Assembly (NCBI RefSeq): GCF_002021815.1
Contig: NZ_CP019952.1
Span: 2,139,001-2,203,000 of the forward strand
DNA length: 64,000 nucleotides
From: Pseudomonas parafulva
GTDB lineage: Bacteria > Pseudomonadota > Gammaproteobacteria > Pseudomonadales > Pseudomonadaceae
Direction: 5' to 3'
Of this stretch, positions 47,176-61,674 are shown in pieces (positions within the stretch are counted from its first letter, which is position 1; each line of letters opens with the position of its first letter). Position numbers and translations under genes: made by a program. The notes below the pieces were generated by a model, which did no database searches, was not told the origin of the DNA, and saw only the letters and a program-made list of their open reading frames with translations.

Positions 47176-48813
47176 ATGACGCTCAGTCCTTTGGCAGGCA
47201 AGCCGGCTCCAGCCAGCGTGCTGGTCGATATTCCCCGCCTACTCACGGCCTACTACACCGGCCGGCCGGATGCTGGCGTGGCGAGCCAGCGTGTCGCCTT
47301 CGGCACATCGGGGCACCGGGGTACTTCGCTCGAGTTGAGCTTCAACGAACACCATGTGCTGGCCATCACCCAGGCCATCTGCCTGTACCGCCAGGAAAAG
47401 GGCATCGATGGCCCGCTGTTCGTCGGTGCTGATACCCATGCGCTGTCGGCGCCTGCCGCGGCGAGTGCATTGGAAGTGCTGGCTGCCAACGGTGTACAGG
47501 TGATGTTGTCCAAGGACGACGAATACACCCCGACGCCGGCGGTGTCCCACGCCATCCTCTGCTACAACCGTGGGCGCCAGGACGGCCTGGCCGACGGCGT
47601 GGTGATCACGCCCTCGCACAACCCGCCGCAAAGTGGTGGCTTCAAGTACAACCCGCCCAACGGCGGCCCGGCCGACAGCGACGTCACCAAGTGGATCGAA
47701 GCCAAGGCCAACGAATTGCTGGCAGCCGGGCTGGCGGGGGTCAAGCGCATCGACCACGCCCAGGCCCTGCAGGCCCCTACCACCCATCGTCACGACTACA
47801 TCAGCCACTATGTGGCAGACCTGGAAAACGTCATCGACTTCGAGGTCATCCGTGCAGCCAAGCTGCGCTTGGGCGTGGACCCGCTGGGTGGGGCAGGGGT
47901 GCGCTACTGGTCGGCCATTGCCCAGCACTATCAACTGGACCTGGAAGTGGTGAACACCGAGGTCGACCCGACGTTCCGCTTCATGAGCGTCGACTGGGAT
48001 GGCCAGATTCGCATGGACCCTTCGTCACCCTACGCCATGCAGGGCTTGATCGGCCTGCGCGAGCGCTTCGACGTGGCCTTTGCCTGCGACCCGGACCATG
48101 ATCGCCATGGCATCGTCACGCCCGACGGCTTGCTGCAACCTAACAATTACCTGGCCGTTGCCATCGACTACCTGTACCGCAACCGTCCACAGTGGCGCAC
48201 TGACGCGGCCGTCGGCAAGACGGTCGTGTCCAGCGGCCTGATCGATCGGGTGACCAAACAGTTGGGCCGCGAGCTGTACGAAGTACCCGTGGGCTTCAAG
48301 TTCTTCGCCCAAGGCCTGTTCGACGGCTCGCTGGGCTTTGGTGGCGAAGAAAGTGCGGGCGCCTCGTTCCTGCGCCGCGACGGCTCGGTATGGGCAACCG
48401 ACAAGGATGGCCTCATCCCGGCCTTGCTGGCTGCGGAGATGACCGCTCGGACGGGACGTAACCCGAGCCAGGCGTACGCCGAGCTGACCCAGGCGCTGGG
48501 CAAGCCGTTCGCTACCCGCGTCGAGGCCAAGGCTGATGCCCGCCAGAAAGGGTTGTTGAGCAAGCTTGCGCCTGAGCAGGTGACCTCTACCGAGCTTGCT
48601 GGAGAGCCGATCCTGCAGATCCTGAGCCACGCGCCGGGTAATGGGCAGGCGATCGGTGGTCTTAAGGTCATCACCGCCAATGGCTGGTTCGCGGCCCGCC
48701 CGTCTGGCACCGAGGACATCTACAAGATCTACGCGGAAAGTTTTGTCGACGAAGCCCACTTGCAACGATTGGTTCAGGAAGCCCAGGTGCTGGTAGATGC
48801 GGCCATTGCGTAA
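47176..48813 (+). CDS. pgm: phosphoglucomutase (alpha-D-glucose phosphate-specific)
   Basis: The 545-residue enzyme interconverts glucose-1-phosphate and glucose-6-phosphate, feeding glycogen, trehalose and polysaccharide synthesis. The catalytic phosphoserine Ser147 lies in '[18 protein letters not shown]'. The metal-binding loop 'CDPDHDRHG' is at 304-312, the sugar-binding '[10 protein letters not shown]' and the phosphate-binding '[14 protein letters not shown]' loop near the C-terminus are intact. It matches the long alpha-PGM (Pgm) family rather than the bifunctional AlgC type. SD GAGG precedes ATG 47176. It is a single gene; a long inverted repeat follows the stop. Confidence 0.95.
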
Positions 48814-48832
48814 GCCGTGATAAAGGGCTTGG

Positions 48833-48883
48833 CCCTGCGATGAGATGTAAATTAGAATTAATCCTATTTACACCATCGCAGGG
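48833..48883 (+). promoter_or_regulatory. long two-part inverted repeat overlapping the ECF sigma ribosome-binding site
   Basis: Outer arms CCCTGCGATG (48833-48842) and CATCGCAGGG (48874-48883) are perfect complements. Inside them GTAAAT (48847-48852) and ATTTAC (48866-48871) pair around a 13-base AT-rich loop. The downstream arm contains the AGGGA Shine-Dalgarno of the sigma gene, eight bases before its ATG. A weak match (10 of 19 by eye) to the Fur box lies at 48847-48865. It could be a Fur-type operator, a translation-blocking leader, or the pgm terminator. Confidence 0.6.
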
Positions 48884-48891
48884 ACTTGTCC

Positions 48892-49404
48892 ATGTTCGAA
48901 GCCGCGCCGCCGCCCACGCAAAGCTTCCCTGACCTTTACCGGGAGCACCGCGGCTGGCTCGAAGGCTGGCTACGACGGCGCATGGGCAATGCCTGGGATG
49001 CGGCCGACCTAAGTCAGGATACCTTCCTTCGCGTGATGGCCAGCGCCCAGCCGTTGACCGACATCCGCGAGCCACGCGCCTACCTGCTGACGGTCGGCAA
49101 GCGACTTCTAAGCAACCTTCACCAACGCCGCAGCCTCGAGAAAGCCTACCTTGAGGCCCTGGTGCACCTGCCTGAACAGCACGCGCCTTCGCCCGAACAG
49201 CGCTGGTTGTTGCTTGAAACGCTGCAAGCGCTCGATCAATTGCTGGACGGTTTGAAGCCGGTCGTGCGCAAGGCTTTTCTGCTAAGCCAGCTCGAAGGGC
49301 TGAGCTACGCCGAAATCGCCAGCCGGCTTGGTGTTTGTGAGCGTTCGGTCAAGCGCTACATGGCGCAGGCCTACGAGCACTGCCTGTTGGCCGAACTTCA
49401 GTGA
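48892..49404 (+). CDS. ECF RNA polymerase sigma factor, FecI/iron-starvation type
   Basis: The 170-residue protein is a group IV sigma factor. Region 2 reads 'DLYREHRGWLEGWLRRRMGNAWDAADLSQDTFLRVM' with the FecI-type 'AADLSQDTFLRV' helix. Region 4 ends 'LEGLSYAEIASRLGVCERSVKRYMAQAYEHC', an intact helix-turn-helix. With the downstream FecR and TonB receptor genes it forms a cell-surface-signalling module that directs transcription of the receptor when its ferric ligand is bound. The start is ATG 48892 with AGGGA eight bases upstream, inside the inverted repeat. Stop and the next start overlap (GTGA). Confidence 0.92.
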   Translation: MFEAAPPPTQSFPDLYREHRGWLEGWLRRRMGNAWDAADLSQDTFLRVMASAQPLTDIREPRAYLLTVGKRLLSNLHQRRSLEKAYLEALVHLPEQHAPSPEQRWLLLETLQALDQLLDGLKPVVRKAFLLSQLEGLSYAEIASRLGVCERSVKRYMAQAYEHCLLAELQ

Positions 49405-50357
49405 GCCCACCTGTGCACCAACGCGAGGCGTTGCGCGAGGCCGCCCAGTGGCTGGCGCTCATCGATTCAGGCGATACCCGCGAGGCGGACTTGACCGGGC
49501 TTGAGCAGTGGCGGGGGCAAAGCGCTGTGCATGAGGCTGCCTGGCAGCAGGCGCTGCGCTTGCGTGAGCGCTTTACCGGGTTGCCTGCCAGTTTGGCCAT
49601 GGCCACCCTTGACCGTCCCGATCACGGCCGACGTGCCGCGCTTGTTCAAATGCTCGGTTTGGCAGCGCTGGTGCCTACGGCTTGGTGGTTGAGCCGCGAA
49701 TTGCCCCTTGAGGCCTGGGCTGCTGATCTGCGTACGGGTGTGGGTGAACGGCGGCTCATGACGCTGGGGGATGGCACTAAGGTGCAGTTGAACACCGACA
49801 GCGCTGTCGACGTGGACGCTGCCAATCATAGACTGTGGTTGCGACGCGGCGAAGTTTCAGTCGACACGCCTGGCCTTCAACCCCTGACCATCCAGGTGCC
49901 TTCAGGTCAGGTGACAGTGGGTGGTGCAACCCTTGGCCCGGGGCAGGTGTGCATCCGCCTGGTCGAACCAGGGTGTCAGGTTGCAGTTGTCCAGGGCCGG
50001 GCAGACGTTCAGCCGCTGAAGGGTGATCGCCTGCGCCTCACCGCCGGCCAGCAAGCTGCCGTTCTGGCGTCAGGTCTGCGAAATGTCGGTCCTCTTCACG
50101 CTTGGCGACTGGGGTGGCGAGATGGCGTGTTGCGCCTGGACGATCAACGTCTAGGCGACCTGCTGGTGGAGTTGAGCCGCTATCGCCCAGGCGTGCTGCG
50201 CTGGGATCCGGCGTTGGACAGGCTCAGGGTGACCGGCACCTTCCGCCTGGATGACACCGACCGGGTATTGGCGCTGCTCGCCGCGAGCCTGCCGGTGCAG
50301 GTGGTGGCCCGTACCCGCTATTGGATCACGCTGGTGCCGCGAGCAACGACTGCCTGA
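49401..50357 (+). CDS. FecR family anti-sigma factor
   Basis: This 318-residue regulator starts at GTG 49401, overlapping the sigma stop (GTGA). An N-terminal DUF4880 cytoplasmic domain (residues 8-55) would bind the sigma factor. A membrane helix at about 82-95 ('MLGLAALVPTAWWL') follows, then the periplasmic FecR domain (about 105-200, with 'RRLMTLGDGTKVQLNTDSAVDV' and 'LWLRRGEVSVDTPG'), and a C-terminal STN-like segment from about 225 that would contact the receptor. The signal passes from receptor to FecR to sigma factor. Length is normal for the family. Confidence 0.9.
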   Translation: MSPPVHQREALREAAQWLALIDSGDTREADLTGLEQWRGQSAVHEAAWQQALRLRERFTGLPASLAMATLDRPDHGRRAALVQMLGLAALVPTAWWLSRELPLEAWAADLRTGVGERRLMTLGDGTKVQLNTDSAVDVDAANHRLWLRRGEVSVDTPGLQPLTIQVPSGQVTVGGATLGPGQVCIRLVEPGCQVAVVQGRADVQPLKGDRLRLTAGQQAAVLASGLRNVGPLHAWRLGWRDGVLRLDDQRLGDLLVELSRYRPGVLRWDPALDRLRVTGTFRLDDTDRVLALLAASLPVQVVARTRYWITLVPRATTA

Positions 50358-50474: not shown

Positions 50475-52880
50475 ATGCCTGCAGTAAAGTCCATTCACCT
50501 GCGCCCATGGGTGCGCGCAGCTCGCCCATTGTTCGCCATGAGCCTGCTACTGGGCACCCCCGCCTGGGCCGACGAGCCAGCCCGGCGCACGTACCAAGTG
50601 CCAGCGGCGAGCCTGGGGGCGGCCTTGACCCGCTTCGCCGATCAAGCAGGGGTCAGCTTGTCGCTGGACCCGGCGCTGGTCAAGGGCCTGCGTAGTGAAG
50701 GGCTGGCCGGCCAGTACAGCGTCGATGAAGGCTTCAGGCAATTACTACGCGGCAGCGGTCTGCAATGGGTATCTGTGGGCCACGATGCCTTTACGCTCGT
50801 GCCGTCGCCGCAGCAAGGGGGCGCGCTGGAAATAGCCCCTACCAGCATCGTCGGCGGCCCACCGACCACCGACGAGGCGCTCCCTTATGCAGGCGGTCAG
50901 GTCGCTCGCCAGGGCGCACAAGGCTTGCTGGGTGCGCGCGATTTCATGGAAACGCCGTTCAGCATCACCAGCTACACCAGCGATCTGGTGAAGAACCAAC
51001 AGGCGCGCACCCTGAGCGAACTGGTCGCCAGTGACCCTTCGGTTCGTGCCACCAACCCGGCCGGTGGGCGTTTCGAGCAGTTCACCATTCGCGGTTTCAG
51101 CTTGTATAACAGTGATGTGTCCTACAACGGCCTCTATGGCTTGCTGCCTACCTACTCGATCGATATGGAGATGGCCGAACGGGTCGACATCATCAAGGGC
51201 CCTAGCCAACTGATCAACGGCATCGCACCACGGGGCAGCGTCGGCGGCGGCATCAACATCCAACCCAAACGCGCCGGTGACACGCCGATCACCGAGTTCA
51301 CCGGCAGCTACGCCTCGGCGGGCCAGGTAGGCGGGGCCGTTGACGTAGGGCGAAGGTTCGGCGACCAGCAGCAGTTCGGCATGCGTCTGAATGCGGTGAA
51401 ACAGTCCGGCGATACCGAGTGGGACCACCAGCAAGTGGACCGCGAAATGGCCGTGCTGGGGCTGGATTTTCGCGGCGAACGCCTGCGGCTTTCGGCCGAC
51501 CTCGGGCATACCGAGCGTGATACAGATGCCCCCCAGGAACGTGTGCTGGTTGGGCCCCGCGCCCAGGTACCGCGTGCTGGCGGTGTGCACCGCAACTACG
51601 CCCAGGCGTGGAGCAAGGCGCGCACCAACGATACCTTCGGGGCAGTGCACGCCGAATATGATCTCAGCGATTCTGTGCTGGCCTATGGCGCAGTGGGTGC
51701 CAGGGAGAGCCGGCACGATTTCCTGCGCCATAACGTTTCTCTGGTTAACAATGCTGGCGACTTCACCATCCAGCCCCGCGATTTCAGCAGGGATGAATCG
51801 GTGCGCACCGCCTTGGCAGGCTTGAGAACCTGGTTACACACTGGGACGGTCAGCCACGAGGTCAACCTGGCTGCAACGTATTACTACATGGACTTCACCA
51901 ATGGGGGGGCTCGTTACGCTTCCTCACCCGGCAACCTCTACCATCCTACGGCTACGCCGACGCCAGGTACCCCAACGCGGCTCGATTCGAAGGATTACAC
52001 CGAGAACCGGTTCTCCGGGTTGGCGTTGTCCGACACCCTCGGCTTTTTCGATGACCGATTGCTGTTGACCCTAGGGCTGCGCTGGCAGCGGGTGCAGGTG
52101 GACGATTGGAGTGATGGGGTCAAAGGCGATACGGCGTATGACGAGAAGAAGGTCTCGCCCTCCGGTGGCGTGCTGTACAAGGTCACGGACGAGCTGTCGG
52201 TGTATGCCAACTACATGGAGGGCTTGAGCCAAGGCAAGATCGCACCGTCCACGTCGATCAACGAGGATCAGATATTCCCACCTTTCACCAGCCGCCAGGT
52301 GGAAGTGGGTGCCAAGTATGACCTGGGCAAAGTGGCGTTTACGGCCAGCGCCTTCAGAATCCGTCAGCCTGCCTATGAAACCAACCCCGGCTCCCGGGTC
52401 TTCGGCCCCAATGGCAAGCGCAACAACCGCGGTGTGGAGCTGAACGTGTTCGGTGAACCCACCACAGGGGTGCGTGTGCTGGGCGGGGTGATGTATATCG
52501 ACAGCGAGCTGACCGATACCGTCGGAGGTGCCTACGATGGCAACCGTGCGCCTGCAACGCCCGCGTACAACGTCAACCTGGGTGCCGAATGGGATGTGCC
52601 GGGTGTGCAGGGGCTGACCCTGACGGCACGTGGCACGCACTCGAGCTCCCAGTACCTGGACCAGAACAACAGCAAGAAAATCGACGGCTGGGAGCGCTAT
52701 GACGTGGGGGCACGGTATGCGTTCAAGCTGGACGACACGCAGGTGACCCTACGCGCCAGCGTCGAAAACGTACTCGATGATCGTTACTGGAGCTCAGCAG
52801 GCGCACCGGATGACGCCGAGCCGGGGCTGACCTTGTCGACACCACGCACCTACCTGCTGTCCGCCACGCTGGGTTTCTGA
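50475..52880 (+). CDS. TonB-dependent siderophore receptor with STN signalling domain
   Basis: The 801-residue outer-membrane receptor has a signal peptide (1-32, ending AWADE), then an STN signalling domain at about residues 40-112 ('QVPAASLGAALTRFADQAGVSLSLDPALVKGLRSEGLAGQYSVDEGF'). A plug domain ('FMETPFSITSYTSDLVKNQQARTLSELVASDPSVRATNP' to about 270) follows, then the 22-strand barrel ending in a C-terminal phenylalanine ('LLSATLGF'). It resembles the ferrichrome/hydroxamate (FhuA, FoxA, FiuA) branch by eye. The ligand is not determined. The STN domain shows it signals to the FecR just upstream. SD GGGGAG precedes the ATG. Confidence 0.93.
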   Translation: MPAVKSIHLRPWVRAARPLFAMSLLLGTPAWADEPARRTYQVPAASLGAALTRFADQAGVSLSLDPALVKGLRSEGLAGQYSVDEGFRQLLRGSGLQWVSVGHDAFTLVPSPQQGGALEIAPTSIVGGPPTTDEALPYAGGQVARQGAQGLLGARDFMETPFSITSYTSDLVKNQQARTLSELVASDPSVRATNPAGGRFEQFTIRGFSLYNSDVSYNGLYGLLPTYSIDMEMAERVDIIKGPSQLINGIAPRGSVGGGINIQPKRAGDTPITEFTGSYASAGQVGGAVDVGRRFGDQQQFGMRLNAVKQSGDTEWDHQQVDREMAVLGLDFRGERLRLSADLGHTERDTDAPQERVLVGPRAQVPRAGGVHRNYAQAWSKARTNDTFGAVHAEYDLSDSVLAYGAVGARESRHDFLRHNVSLVNNAGDFTIQPRDFSRDESVRTALAGLRTWLHTGTVSHEVNLAATYYYMDFTNGGARYASSPGNLYHPTATPTPGTPTRLDSKDYTENRFSGLALSDTLGFFDDRLLLTLGLRWQRVQVDDWSDGVKGDTAYDEKKVSPSGGVLYKVTDELSVYANYMEGLSQGKIAPSTSINEDQIFPPFTSRQVEVGAKYDLGKVAFTASAFRIRQPAYETNPGSRVFGPNGKRNNRGVELNVFGEPTTGVRVLGGVMYIDSELTDTVGGAYDGNRAPATPAYNVNLGAEWDVPGVQGLTLTARGTHSSSQYLDQNNSKKIDGWERYDVGARYAFKLDDTQVTLRASVENVLDDRYWSSAGAPDDAEPGLTLSTPRTYLLSATLGF

Positions 52881-55052: not shown

Positions 55053-55901
55053 TCAACGCCGTCCACGCCCATATGCCTGGCTGATCCGGTCGATGACCAT
55101 GGCCAGTGCCACGATGGCCAGCCCTGCCTCGACGCCCTGGCCGACGTTCAGCGTCTGGATGCCTGCCAGTACATCTTCACCCAGCCCTCGCGCCCCAATC
55201 ATCGACGCGACCACGACCATCGACAGGGCCATCATCACCGACTGATTGAGCCCGGCCATGATGCTGGGCAGCGCCAGGGGCAGGGCGATGCGCCTGAGTC
55301 GCTGAGCGCGGGTCGCGCCGAGGCCTTGGGCAGCCTTGAGCAACGATGGGTCTATCTGGCTCAACCCAAGCTCGGTGAGCCGCACCAAAGGGGGCAGGGC
55401 ATAGATCAAGGTCGCGAAAACCGCAGGCACCTTGCCCAGGCCGAAGAGCATCAACACGGGAATCAGGTAGACGAAGGCGGGTAGGGTCTGCATCACGTCG
55501 AGCACCGGCATTACCAGGCGTCTTGCCAACGGCCGAGCTGCCAGCACGACGCCCAACGGTATGCCCACCAGCACGCACAGCCCGGTACTGACCAGCACCA
55601 ACGCCAGGGTTTGCAGCAGTTTGTCCCACAACCCCAGCATGCCGATGAGTGCCAGCAGCCCTACCAGAACACAACTTCGCAGCAGGCTTCGGCACGCATG
55701 CCAGGCCAGCGCACCGACCCCCGCCAGCAGTAGCCACCACGGCATGAGCCGCAGCAGGTTTTCCAGGCCGACGAGCACTTGCAGCAACTGGTCGGAGACG
55801 CTGCGCAAGTGATCCCCGTAGTGGAGTACCAACCAGTCGACCATGCGGTTGACCTGGTCGGCGAAGGAAAACTGCAAAGCCTGGGGAAAACCATTGCTCA
55901 C
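55053..55901 (-). CDS. ProW/OpuAB-type glycine-betaine ABC permease
   Basis: The 282-residue permease resembles ProW/OpuAB. The binding-protein-dependent EAA loop is at about residues 185-215 ('LLKAAQGLGATRAQRLRRIALPLALPSIMAGLNQSVMMALSMVVVASMIGARGLGEDVL'), the classic betaine-permease signature. About seven hydrophobic segments precede it. The start is GTG 55901, overlapping the binding-protein stop (GTGA). The ORF extends upstream of this to 55952 but without a coding start of better quality. No ATPase gene is next to it, which is unusual for this family. Confidence 0.88.
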   Translation of the reverse strand: MSNGFPQALQFSFADQVNRMVDWLVLHYGDHLRSVSDQLLQVLVGLENLLRLMPWWLLLAGVGALAWHACRSLLRSCVLVGLLALIGMLGLWDKLLQTLALVLVSTGLCVLVGIPLGVVLAARPLARRLVMPVLDVMQTLPAFVYLIPVLMLFGLGKVPAVFATLIYALPPLVRLTELGLSQIDPSLLKAAQGLGATRAQRLRRIALPLALPSIMAGLNQSVMMALSMVVVASMIGARGLGEDVLAGIQTLNVGQGVEAGLAIVALAMVIDRISQAYGRGRR

Positions 55902-56914
55902 AGACCGCCCTCGACCTTGGTGGCCACGTGCTCGGGAAGCCAAGCCTTCCACACTTGCGGGTGCTGGCGCATGAACGCCAAGGCGGCGTCACGGGGAGGG
56001 GTCCGTTTTTCGCTCATTTGCGCCAGTGCCTGGTTGAGCGGGTCGATAGGCAGGTCCACCCGCTCGAACACCTGGACCAAGTCCGGGTATTGCTCACGAA
56101 AGGCTTTGGACACGCCAACCGAAAGTTTGGCTGGCAGCGAACTGCTGCCTGTTGGAGCTGGGTTGGCAGGGTCGGTCAACGTCGCCCAGGCCTGGGCATC
56201 GAATGCAGGTTCCTGTAGCCGCACGAGCTTGTAGCGGCCCATGAGCGGCGTAGGGTTCCAGTAGTAGAAAAGCACGGGTTGGCCCCGGCGAATGGACGAC
56301 CCGATCTCGGCATCCATCGCGGCCCCCGACCCTGTGCGCAAGTTCGTGTACAGTTCGTCGAGGCCATAGGCCTTGAGCTTCTGGCTGTTCACGGTTTCGG
56401 ACGTCCAGCCACTGGGGCTGTTCAGGAAACGGCCTTTGTCGGGTGATTCGGGGTCGCGGAACACCGGGGCGTAGCGCTTTAGGTCCTCGACGCTGCGCAA
56501 CTCAGGTGCCAAGGGCTTGAGGTTACGCGACGCGTCGCCCTCGATGACATACGCCGGTACCCACCAGCCTTCTTCGGCATGCTTGACCGTGTCGCCCAGT
56601 GCAAACACCTGGCCTGCCTGCTCGGCCTTGACCCAGGCAGGGCTGCGGCCCGCCCACTCTTCGGCGATTACCTGCAGGTCGTTACGGGCCAGGGCGACTT
56701 CCAGGCTGACCGTGCTCCCAGGCAATGTTTCGGTGGCGTAGCCGTAGCCACGCTCGACGATCACGCGCAGGAGTTCGGTGGTGAAGGCACCGCTTTCCCA
56801 GGTAAGGGCGCCAAAGCGAATGGGCGATTTCTGATCGGCAGCGCCAGCGCCGTCGGCAGTGGCCACACCCAGGGCGAACAGCACCCCGAACAGCAGCGAT
56901 GAACCTCGTTTCAT
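55898..56914 (-). CDS. glycine-betaine/choline ABC substrate-binding protein (OpuAC/ProX type)
   Basis: The 338-residue periplasmic protein has a signal peptide (1-26, ending GAGAAD), then the OpuAC fold. 'RFGALTWESGAFTTELLRVIVERGYGYATETLPGSTVSLEVALARNDLQVIAEEW' and 'LFYYWNPTPLMGRYKLVRLQEP' carry the Trp/Tyr residues that form the quaternary-ammonium cage in the family. Overlap with the permease (GTGA) couples the two. Substrate is likely betaine, choline, carnitine or a related compound. The ATPase is missing from the locus. Confidence 0.88.
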   Translation of the reverse strand: MKRGSSLLFGVLFALGVATADGAGAADQKSPIRFGALTWESGAFTTELLRVIVERGYGYATETLPGSTVSLEVALARNDLQVIAEEWAGRSPAWVKAEQAGQVFALGDTVKHAEEGWWVPAYVIEGDASRNLKPLAPELRSVEDLKRYAPVFRDPESPDKGRFLNSPSGWTSETVNSQKLKAYGLDELYTNLRTGSGAAMDAEIGSSIRRGQPVLFYYWNPTPLMGRYKLVRLQEPAFDAQAWATLTDPANPAPTGSSSLPAKLSVGVSKAFREQYPDLVQVFERVDLPIDPLNQALAQMSEKRTPPRDAALAFMRQHPQVWKAWLPEHVATKVEGGL

Positions 56915-56983
56915 GCCTAACCTCGTCGTCTACAGCCCCTCGGGGATGGGGCAAGTGTAGACGACGCGGCGCAGGCGGCAGAC

Positions 56984-59128
56984 TCAGACGCGGAACTGGT
57001 CCATCAATGCCTGCTGCTGGTTGGCCAAGGCATTGAGCGACTGACTGACCCTCGCCGATTCGTTGGCCTGGCCGGACAGCGACTCGGTGACATCGCGAAT
57101 GGTCGCCACGTTGCTGTTGATTTCCTCGGCCACCGCGCTTTGTTCCTCGGCTGCCGAGGCGATCTGCAGGTTCATGTCGGTGATGACCGTCACCGCCTGG
57201 CCAATGCGCTGCAAGGCGGTCACGGCCTGGCCCACCTGCTGCACGCCGCTTTGGGCCTGACGATGGCTGTTGTCCATTGCGCCCACCACTTCGCGGGTAC
57301 CGTCCTGCAATGCCTCGATGACCTGGCGGGTTTCTTCGACCGACTCCTGGGTGCGCTGGGCCAGGTTGCGGACTTCGTCGGCAACCACCGCAAAGCCGCG
57401 CCCGGCCTCACCGGCTCGGGCTGCTTCGATGGCGGCGTTGAGCGCCAGCAAGTTGGTCTGCTCGGCAATCGAGCGGATGACTTCCAATACGGAGCCAATT
57501 TTCTCGCTGTTCTGCGACAGGCCCTGGACCTCGGCCATGGCCGTGCTCATGTCAGCGGCCAGTGAGTCGATGCTGTGGGTGGTGCGATCGATCACCGCCA
57601 ACCCTTCGCGGGTGGCCTGGTCGGCGTCGCGGGCCGCCTGCGCGGCTTGCGCAGCGCTTCGGGCGACGTCCTGGGCGGTCGCGCTCATCTCATGGGAGGC
57701 GGTGGCTACCTGGTCCACCTGGCGGTATTGCTGTTCCATGCCGGCGCTGGTCTGGGTAGCGATGGCCGATGACTGATCGGCCGTTGAGCGGGCGGCCTGT
57801 ACCGACTGCTTTACCTCGGCGATGGTGGGCTGGAGTTTGTCCAGGAAACGGTTGAACCAGCCCGCCAGTTCGCCCAGTTCATCCTGCTTGTCGTAGGTCA
57901 AACGGCGGGTCAGGTCACCTTCACCACTGGCGATGTCCTTGAGCATGGCCGCCACGCCCAGGATCGGGCGGGTAACGCCACGGGCCATCAGCCACACCAT
58001 CAGCAGGCCGAAGATGGCTGCTGCCAGGCCAAGGCCCAGTTCGAGGAGGGTACCGCTGGTGTTGAGGGCGTCCAGCTCCTGTTTCAGTGCCTCGGCAGGC
58101 CCGGTCAGGGCGTTTTCAGGGACGTCCAGCAACACGCCCCATGGCTTGGCGTCCGGAATCGGACGGAAGGCCGCGAGCACTTTCAGGCGCTGGCGATCAT
58201 TGATGATGGTCATTTTGCCGTCGGCCATCTTGGCCACCAGCTCTGCACCCTTGGTCGTGTCGATCTGGTCGAAGCGCTGGGAGAGCTTGCTGGCATCTAG
58301 ACTGTAACCTGCCAGCAAGCCCACCGGGCTCAGAATGCCCACGGTGGTGCGGCCTTCATAAAGGCTGCGGCTGGCCTGTTCGCTCAGTGCCTGCAAGCTG
58401 TTGAGGTTGATGTCCACCGACAGCGTGGCTATCGCCTTGCCGTCCACCACCAGCGGGAAGACGATGCTGGTCATCAGCACCTGCTGGCCATCGATGGCAT
58501 AGAAGTAGGGTTCGACCACGCAGACCTTGCCCGACGTGCGCGGGCATACCCACCAGGTATTGGCAGGTTGGCCGCTAGGCCCGATGGAAGTGTCGGCCAT
58601 GTCGCGCTCGGGCAGAGCCATTGAGGTCAGCTGGCCCACGTGCGGTTGCGACCAGTACAGGGCGAAGCGGCCGGTTTCGTTGCTGCCAAGCTGTGCCTGG
58701 CCGGCGAACAGGCTGTCCTTGCTGTCCAGCGCATTGGGCTCGAACACCAGTGACAGGCCCAGCAGATCGGGGTTGGCCTGAAGCGCGGCACGCACCTGCC
58801 GGGTCATGTCCTCGCGCAGGTCGAACGCATCGAGAAAGCGCTTTTCGGCCTGTTCGCGCAGGAACAGTACCTGCCTGGCAAAGCCCGCGCCGTACTGGTA
58901 GGCATCCATGAATTGGCGGCGGATGTTCAGGGCCTGCACCTCGCCCTGGGATTCGATGCGCGACTGGGCCGATTCGGTCAGCATCTGCATGCTGCTGGCC
59001 TTGACCAGGTCCGAGCTGTGGTCCATCCGGTACAGGGACAATCCGATGAGCAGGGTGACGATGCCGGCCAGGCACAGGCCGGCCAGCAATGTGATTTTCC
59101 ATTGGATGGAAAGGTGTCGCAGAGGCAT
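56984..59128 (-). CDS. methyl-accepting chemotaxis protein with dCache sensor
   Basis: The 714-residue chemoreceptor has TM1 at about 12-32, a double-Cache periplasmic domain at 40-355, TM2 at about 362-381, a HAMP domain and the long MCP coiled coil. The signalling tip '[43 protein letters not shown]' is complete. The periplasmic domain carries two cysteines only eight residues apart (C195 and C203 in '[17 protein letters not shown]'), a possible disulfide. No C-terminal CheR-tether pentapeptide is present. The ligand is unknown. A sigma-28-type promoter is visible upstream (59197-59223), so expression is tied to flagellar genes. It lies downstream of, and divergent from, the antiporter gene. 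Confidence 0.93.
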
Positions 59129-60675: not shown

Positions 60676-61674
60676 TCAGCGCTTGGCGGGCGGCGGCGAG
60701 ATACGGTTGAGCACCGTGCTGCCGTCGTTGCTGCGGGTCAGGTAGATCGGCAGCACCTTGGGCAGGTTGTTGACCAGCTGGCCTACCTCCCGGGTGTTGT
60801 AGATGCCGCTGATACGAATCTGACCGGTACCGGAATCGGCAAGCCTGAGCGGCTTGTCGAGGTAGCGGTTTATGGCCGGCAGTGCTTGTTCAAGGGTCAA
60901 GTTGTCGAGCACCAGTTTGCCGCTGCGCCAGGCCAGCGCGTCGGCAAAGTTGCTGTTTTCCAGCAGTTGAGGCTCGAAATCGCCCTTGCGGTAGATGGCC
61001 TGCATGCCAGGGCCAAGCCGATAGCCCGTCTTGCCCTCGCTGGAGACCAGCACCGATCCCTCGACCAGGGTCACTTTAACCGTGTCCTGGTATTTCCAGA
61101 CATTGAAGCGGGTACCTGTCACGCGGGCCTGGCCATTGCCGGCACGGACCACGAAGGGGTGGGTGCTGTCGTGGTGCACCGTGAAGAATGCCTCGCCATG
61201 CTTGAGTGTGACACGGCGCTGGTGCTTGAAGTTGAGGTAAGTCAGATCGGTATTCAGGTTGAGCTGCACCGTGCTGCCGTCGCTCAACTGCACGGTCTGC
61301 ATGTGGTCCGTGGTCTCGAAATGCTGGTAGCGGTTGGGAACCCAGCCTTGCTCCCAGCCGATCCATCCCACCAACGGCAGTGCCGCCAATGCGATGACGG
61401 CTGCGTAAGCCTGGGCGCGCCATCTGCGACCGCTGCGCCTGACCGGGCCAGCGTGCCCGATCGCTTGAGCGGGCCGCGGCAGCAGGTCAGCCGTGTGCCA
61501 GATAGCCAGCATGGCTTGGTATTCCTCGGCATGACGCGGATCGGCTGCCAGCCACCGGCCAAACGCCTCACGCTCTGCAGTTGTGCAATCGCCTTCATGC
61601 AGGCGCATGCACCAGTGCGCAGCGGCATCGGCCATGCTGTCATCGATGTCGATAGTAGGGCGGTCTTGATTCAT
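60676..61674 (-). CDS. isolated FecR-domain regulator
   Basis: The 332-residue protein has a DUF4880 N-terminus ('AAHWCMRLHEGDCTTAEREAFGRWLAADPRHAEEYQAMLAIW', residues 18-60), a membrane helix at about 89-107, a FecR domain (about 115-215, 'QTVQLSDGSTVQLNLNTDLTYL') and a C-terminal segment up to 332 ('LVLDNLTLEQALPAINRYLDKPLRLAD') resembling an STN-contact domain. It has the normal structure of an anti-sigma regulator, but no ECF sigma gene or TonB receptor is adjacent; the next gene upstream is MarR-type and divergent. The frame at 61640-61867 is not a sigma factor. It may pair with a sigma elsewhere, or have lost its partner. Confidence 0.88.
   Translation of the reverse strand: MNQDRPTIDIDDSMADAAAHWCMRLHEGDCTTAEREAFGRWLAADPRHAEEYQAMLAIWHTADLLPRPAQAIGHAGPVRRSGRRWRAQAYAAVIALAALPLVGWIGWEQGWVPNRYQHFETTDHMQTVQLSDGSTVQLNLNTDLTYLNFKHQRRVTLKHGEAFFTVHHDSTHPFVVRAGNGQARVTGTRFNVWKYQDTVKVTLVEGSVLVSSEGKTGYRLGPGMQAIYRKGDFEPQLLENSNFADALAWRSGKLVLDNLTLEQALPAINRYLDKPLRLADSGTGQIRISGIYNTREVGQLVNNLPKVLPIYLTRSNDGSTVLNRISPPPAKR

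Follow-up and report, generated by a model that had tools for sequence, protein, structure and literature searches.

What does a long inverted repeat do when it lies between two genes read in the same direction and its 3' arm contains the Shine-Dalgarno (SD) sequence of the second gene? This question is raised by a locus in the window, the stretch of 64,000 nucleotides of Pseudomonas parafulva DNA that was analysed, where such a repeat separates the phosphoglucomutase gene pgm from a FecI-type sigma gene. An earlier note on this DNA had proposed that the repeat folds in the mRNA and hides the SD, and had named a Fur-type operator and a pgm terminator as other readings.

Materials and Methods

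The 190 orthologue sequences consisted of the window, 80 named loci, 29 loci from a genus search, and 80 further stretches. The genus search covered 398 genomes, 264 of which had a match, and part of these was fetched (the 29 loci besides that of the window, and the 80 stretches). Six sequences in which the core was not found by pattern (L031, L035, L078, L120, L182, and L186) and 37 that were identical to a kept leader were removed, which left 147 distinct leaders. Upstream neighbours were assigned from homology or with a home-made codon score instead of from annotation. The opening energy of the ribosome site was computed over positions -20 to +13.

The locus and its inverted repeat

Open reading frames, Pfam, and profile searches showed that pgm, the FecI-type sigma gene, a FecR gene, and a TonB-dependent receptor gene follow one another on the + strand. 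The gene pgm (47176-48813) matched TIGR01132 with an E-value of 2e-264 and carries the Pfam PGM_PMM domains. The ECF sigma gene (48892-49404) matched NF007232, RNA polymerase sigma factor FecI, at 210.8 bits (cut-off 185) and carries Sigma70_r2 and r4_2 of Pfam. The FecR-type anti-sigma gene (49401-50357) encodes the Pfam domains FecR and DUF4880. The receptor (50475-52880) has an STN signalling domain according to Pfam, and its nearest solved relative is 8s34_B, the ferric-mycobactin receptor FemA (E 1.5e-168). ECF sigma, FecR, and STN receptor are consecutive, which is the composition of a FecI-FecR-TonB receptor signalling module. A second FecR-type domain was seen in the window at 61051-61311 on the - strand, and the genome has seven FecR matches.

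The closest named orthologue of the sigma gene is that of P. fulva (L001), with 96% protein identity. PP_3577 of P. putida KT2440 is probably its orthologue there, judging by names and gene order rather than by sequence. In published studies, PP_3577 is annotated as an ECF sigma factor that adjoins the FecR gene PP_3576, and is listed with raised expression in a bioelectrochemical system (log2 3.03) and with lowered expression in a study of an H-NS-family mutant; neither expression result concerns the leader.

The stop codon of pgm and the ATG of the sigma gene (48892) are 78 nt apart, and the inverted repeat lies between them. A perfect outer repeat of 10 bp, with CCCTGCGATG at 48833-48842 and CATCGCAGGG at 48874-48883 (+ strand), encloses an inner repeat of 7 bp, with TGTAAAT at 48846-48852 and ATTTACA at 48866-48872. 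The SD, AGGGA (48880-48884), overlaps the outer 3' arm. The ten-base arms, the AGGGA, and the start codon of the earlier note were confirmed in this way; its inner repeat is present, but with seven rather than six pairs. Since pgm ends 19 nt ahead of the outer 5' arm, ribosomes terminating on pgm should not open the stem, as far as the coordinates can tell.

The RNA of 101 nt from 48820 to 48920 folded with -35.2 kcal/mol (z -3.45), and none of 200 dinucleotide shuffles was as stable. When only the outer part of the promoter spacer (13 bases) was shuffled, p was 0.002. The upstream sequence added 14.7 kcal/mol to the closing of the ribosome site, the second highest value among the 44 non-overlapping ORFs of the window, and 2 of 400 random positions matched it. 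Between 4 and 50 C, the SD was predicted to be 0.2-0.5% open in the full-stem RNA and 20-39% open in the RNA from the predicted own start. A repeat element and a plasmid-borne relative were rejected: a 32-base pattern of its 5' half matched only itself in its own genome with up to 3 mismatches, and the search for a plasmid-borne relative gave no match.

The predicted promoter and operator

The region 48300-49300 has one promoter-like site, with a predicted -35 element TTGGCC (48829-48834, +), a spacer of 18 nt, and a predicted -10 element TAGAAT (48853-48858, +). The position of the -10 element places the predicted transcription start at 48864-48867 (+), within the hairpin. A Fur-like operator core, GTAAATTAGAATTAATCCTATTTAC, covers the -10 element (48847-48871). 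The same arrangement was conserved in the 147 leaders, with or without the hairpin: a TTG-type -35, 17-18 nt, TAGAAT (146 of 147), and the Fur-like box over the -10, with TTAATTAGAATCAGTCTCATTT as the consensus core. At the -35, CTTGG was followed by 18 nt in 68 leaders and by 17 nt in 5, CTTTG was found in 31, ATGG or GTGG in 35, and other forms in 8. The promoter columns were kept in all neighbour classes; the spacer columns were variable outside the pgm class, and the stretch from the -35 to the core was unconserved where no co-directional neighbour is close.

The orthologue consensus agreed with 13 of the 19 bases of the Fur box. The 10 of 19 matches that the earlier note had counted on the + strand of the window were reproduced (11 of 19 on the - strand), but 140 of 1000 shuffles reach this level, so the window alone is not above chance. 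In 7 of 12 leaders, the window being among the 12, the match was 12-13 of 19, which 4-44 of 1000 shuffles reached. From the conserved core and the consensus, the inner part of the repeat is very probably a Fur-type operator, as had been suggested.

Because the 5' arm fills the spacer between -35 and -10, transcription is predicted to start (at about 48865) within the hairpin and downstream of the whole 5' arm, and an mRNA from this promoter should therefore lack that arm. A literature search of article texts found neither a start-site map nor data on read-through or translation for this sigma gene.

Conservation of the stem

Nineteen distinct leaders were found in the P. putida group, and in each of them a co-directional pgm lies 77-79 nt upstream. 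All 19 folded with the SD in the stem, with 20-25 pairs in the best fold, and the outer 5' arm was paired in each of them; the covering of the SD by the stem, as proposed by the earlier note, is supported at the level of predicted structure. The CAGGG was paired at five of five bases in 15 leaders and at 3-4 bases in the remaining 4. In the alignment of this class (A2), from which the pairs of the outer 3' arm were counted, 93.4% of the cells were paired, compared with at most 55.4% for slid structures. RNAalifold recovered the same stem. Four pairs had changed on both sides, and the covariation score was reached by 4 of 500 shuffles. The arms also matched their own partner better than the arms of other species (permutation p 0.008). 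The comparison of related Pseudomonas that the earlier note had suggested has accordingly yielded compensatory and G-U changes in the P. putida group.

Departures from perfect pairing in the outer 12 pairs comprised 37 G-U, 7 A-C, and 10 other cells. The excess of G-U over A-C would fit an RNA of the + strand better than a DNA palindrome, with the caveat that two columns opposite the SD contribute 26 of the 37 G-U cells. A tree of 43 sigma genes placed the 19 pgm-class genes in one clade (100/99), so the pgm arrangement represents one evolutionary event. When the Fur half-site was kept constant, only 8 of the 19 leaders had an outer arm that beat shuffles (p<0.05). Eight leaders of the sister lineage, which have other upstream genes (L016-L021, L096, and L098), had closing energies of 2.1-9.3 kcal/mol versus 8.5-19.2 kcal/mol in the pgm class, and the two ranges overlap.

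Leaders with other upstream genes

The median opening energy of the pgm class was 23.6 kcal/mol in read-through RNA versus 11.0 kcal/mol in RNA from the predicted own start. The difference between the two exceeded 3 kcal/mol in all 19 pgm leaders, in 31 of the 77 that lack a close co-directional neighbour, and in 10 of 28, 2 of 9, 6 of 10, and 1 of 4 leaders of the AraC, LysR, other close, and far AraC classes, respectively. The lowest pgm value, 8.5 kcal/mol, was reached by 9 of 128 non-pgm leaders; one of them, L150, closed with 18.1 kcal/mol, and its upstream neighbour was called antiparallel. Leaders of the AraC and LysR classes likewise follow a co-directional gene at close range and have arms near the SD, but their ribosome site underwent hardly any extra closing, with medians of 2.0 and -0.8 kcal/mol, respectively.

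Taken over all classes, the arms were better behind a close co-directional gene (66 versus 78 leaders, p 2e-11, uncorrected for kinship and leaving out 3 leaders for which no neighbour could be called). The arms had p<0.05 in 36 of 66 leaders with such a gene versus 9 of 78 others. Counted by synteny unit (9 versus 37), p was 0.018 for the shuffle z and a borderline 0.051 for the closing energy. With the Fur half-site fixed, p<0.05 was found in 6 of 28 AraC leaders, in none of the 9 LysR leaders or the 10 other close ones, and in 8 of the 81 that are not close. A convergent origin of the hairpin in the other close-neighbour classes was considered; it was weakened by the tests with synteny units and a fixed half-site and is not claimed.

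A different stem, ending just before the SD, was observed in the AraC class (L023-L028, L030, L032-L034, and similar leaders), 69-99 nt behind an AraC-type gene. That of L024, CGCGAAGTTA / TAACTTCGCG, is an example. It beat shuffles (p<0.05) in 18 of 28 leaders, much of this being the Fur half-site, and was absent from L037 and L130.

How the stem may act

The computations show the repeats, which are conserved and covary in the P. putida group, the conserved promoter columns, and the predicted closing of the ribosome site; the start site within the hairpin, Fur binding, read-through from pgm, and a translational block are inferred. We believe, with somewhat better than even confidence, that the -35/-10 spacer doubles as an anti-SD arm which silences pgm read-through, and that the mRNA of the own promoter escapes. 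The element would be a Fur-type, iron-controlled sigma-70 promoter whose spacer encodes the anti-SD arm. When iron is scarce, transcription would start at about 48865, inside the hairpin, and give an mRNA with the 3' arm only; its SD would be fairly free, and the sigma factor would be made. An mRNA running on from pgm would carry both arms, the stem of about 20 pairs would bury the SD, and little or no sigma factor would be produced. The promoter of origin would decide whether the sigma message is translated. The earlier note had treated SD sequestration and a start within the hairpin as alternatives, yet they are compatible with each other, since formation of the stem can be confined to read-through RNA.

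In the main rival explanation, the stem belongs to the 3' end of the pgm mRNA, giving protection from exonucleases or serving Rho-dependent or other termination, and its overlap with the SD is incidental. The stem does stand directly behind pgm in 19 of 19 leaders. Furthermore, among 17 pgm loci of other genomes, 5 had a U-tract terminator and several others had long hairpins without a U run (judged by eye), so a 3' hairpin is usual behind pgm. However, none of the 19 leaders has a U run after the stem. The centre of the stem lies on the promoter and operator, and the conserved pairing extends through the SD, which a 3' end does not need. We regard this explanation as rather unlikely. An intrinsic form of the pgm terminator named in the earlier note was rejected, because no intrinsic terminator was scored between pgm and the sigma gene in the window and the U run is lacking throughout the class.

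A palindrome acting purely as DNA, with the inner box bound by Fur and the outer arms by a second dimeric regulator or by Fur multimers, appears less likely still. The conservation of the inner operator with and without the outer arms speaks for it. Against it, the outer arms are unconserved in the other classes, the SD itself is part of the outer 3' arm, and the G-U changes that prevail over A-C there keep RNA pairing and break DNA symmetry. A riboregulator in the 5' leader of the gene's own mRNA, responding to temperature, a ligand, or a small RNA, would likewise hide the SD in the stem, and would have its start upstream of 48833. We consider it very improbable, since the sole promoter-like site in 1 kb starts inside the hairpin and its elements are conserved, and since promoter and operator account for the conserved loop. 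An RNA thermometer was rejected on the predicted opening of the SD, which stays below 1% from 4 to 50 C, and a known riboswitch on the Rfam search, which gave no match up to E 1 in 48500-49200. The temperature or ligand control of the own mRNA that the earlier note had offered as an example was given up for these reasons.

Comparison with known systems

A read-through hairpin of the same design has been proposed for sigG of Bacillus subtilis in the consulted part of PMC5942855, with reference to Masuda et al. 1988 and Sun et al. 1991. According to that part, sigG is also a sigma gene that follows a co-directional operon at close range, and RNA from its own promoter cannot form the stem (PMC5942855). 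Unlike sigG, the present gene has a sigma-70-like promoter of its own, a Fur-like operator between the arms, a metabolic upstream gene (pgm), and covariation across species, and the organism and the sigma family are unrelated. A gate of the sigG type has already been proposed; what may be new here, as far as the comparison goes, is the unrelated organism and the interlacing with a Fur-like operator. In the read-through hairpins of the IS10 transposase gene and of lacI-lacZ, the ribosome site is hidden only in RNA that started upstream of the normal start. They differ in belonging to a mobile element or to the lac operator.

The locus resembles FecI-FecR-TonB modules with a FemA-type receptor in the order of sigma, FecR, and STN receptor genes and in the Fur-like box at the sigma promoter. 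Compared with such modules through the consulted portions of PMC12319065, PMC7273181, and PMC3597554, it is set apart by the SD-closing read-through stem, and no comparable leader was met in those portions. If the proposed mechanism holds, it would be a cheap, terminator-free way of silencing a Fur-controlled gene behind an active neighbour, and the anti-SD arm would be housed in the -35/-10 spacer, a region with little sequence demand of its own. It would also add, from an unrelated phylum, a second sigma gene that is gated by its promoter of origin.

Similar stems elsewhere in the genome

SD-closing stems were counted with a threshold of 8 kcal/mol, which was picked on set A. In set A (464 kb, window included), they were found at 11 of 94 genes behind co-directional genes versus 0 of 82 divergent ones, and a plain terminator accounts for one of the 11. 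Set B (a further 400 kb of the same genome) gave 4 of 74 versus 5 of 82, with no excess, and set C (400 kb of another Pseudomonas) gave 3 of 50 versus 0 of 60 (p 0.09). For sets A and B pooled, the counts were 15 of 168 versus 5 of 164 (p 0.02). With windows shifted 35 nt off the SD, the counts were 6 versus 0, 6 versus 3, and 5 versus 2 in sets A, B, and C, respectively. As the shifted windows also show an excess, that of set A is not specific to the SD. The genome-wide excess of such stems behind co-directional genes suggested by set A was not replicated in set B. That promoters of Pseudomonas behind co-directional genes often encode an anti-SD arm ahead of their start site, and thereby gate translation by the promoter of origin, with the sigma gene and the gene at 55898-56914 as two cases, is a doubtful generalisation which we hold to be improbable.

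Five other genes of the same genome lie behind a co-directional gene and have a ribosome site that a long stem hides only with the upstream sequence, at a penalty of 9.9-18.7 kcal/mol: L254 938-1613 (-), L259 14852-15344 (-), L248 4346-5360 (+), L253 1291-1942 (+), and L264 3355-4132 (+). The class was not replicated in the second sample; the single cases may be real.

A second SD-covering hairpin of the window, CGTCGTCTACA / TGTAGACGACG with 11 bp, is located at 56915-56970 on the - strand. It precedes the substrate-binding-protein gene 55898-56914, which lies 69 nt downstream of a chemoreceptor gene (56984-59128) read in the same direction and has the strongest read-through closing of the 44 window ORFs (15.6 kcal/mol). 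Its 5' arm is again at or upstream of a -10-like site. Among the leaders of this gene in 30 relatives, the -10-like CTACACTT was found in 22 and CGTCG...CGACGAGG in 10.
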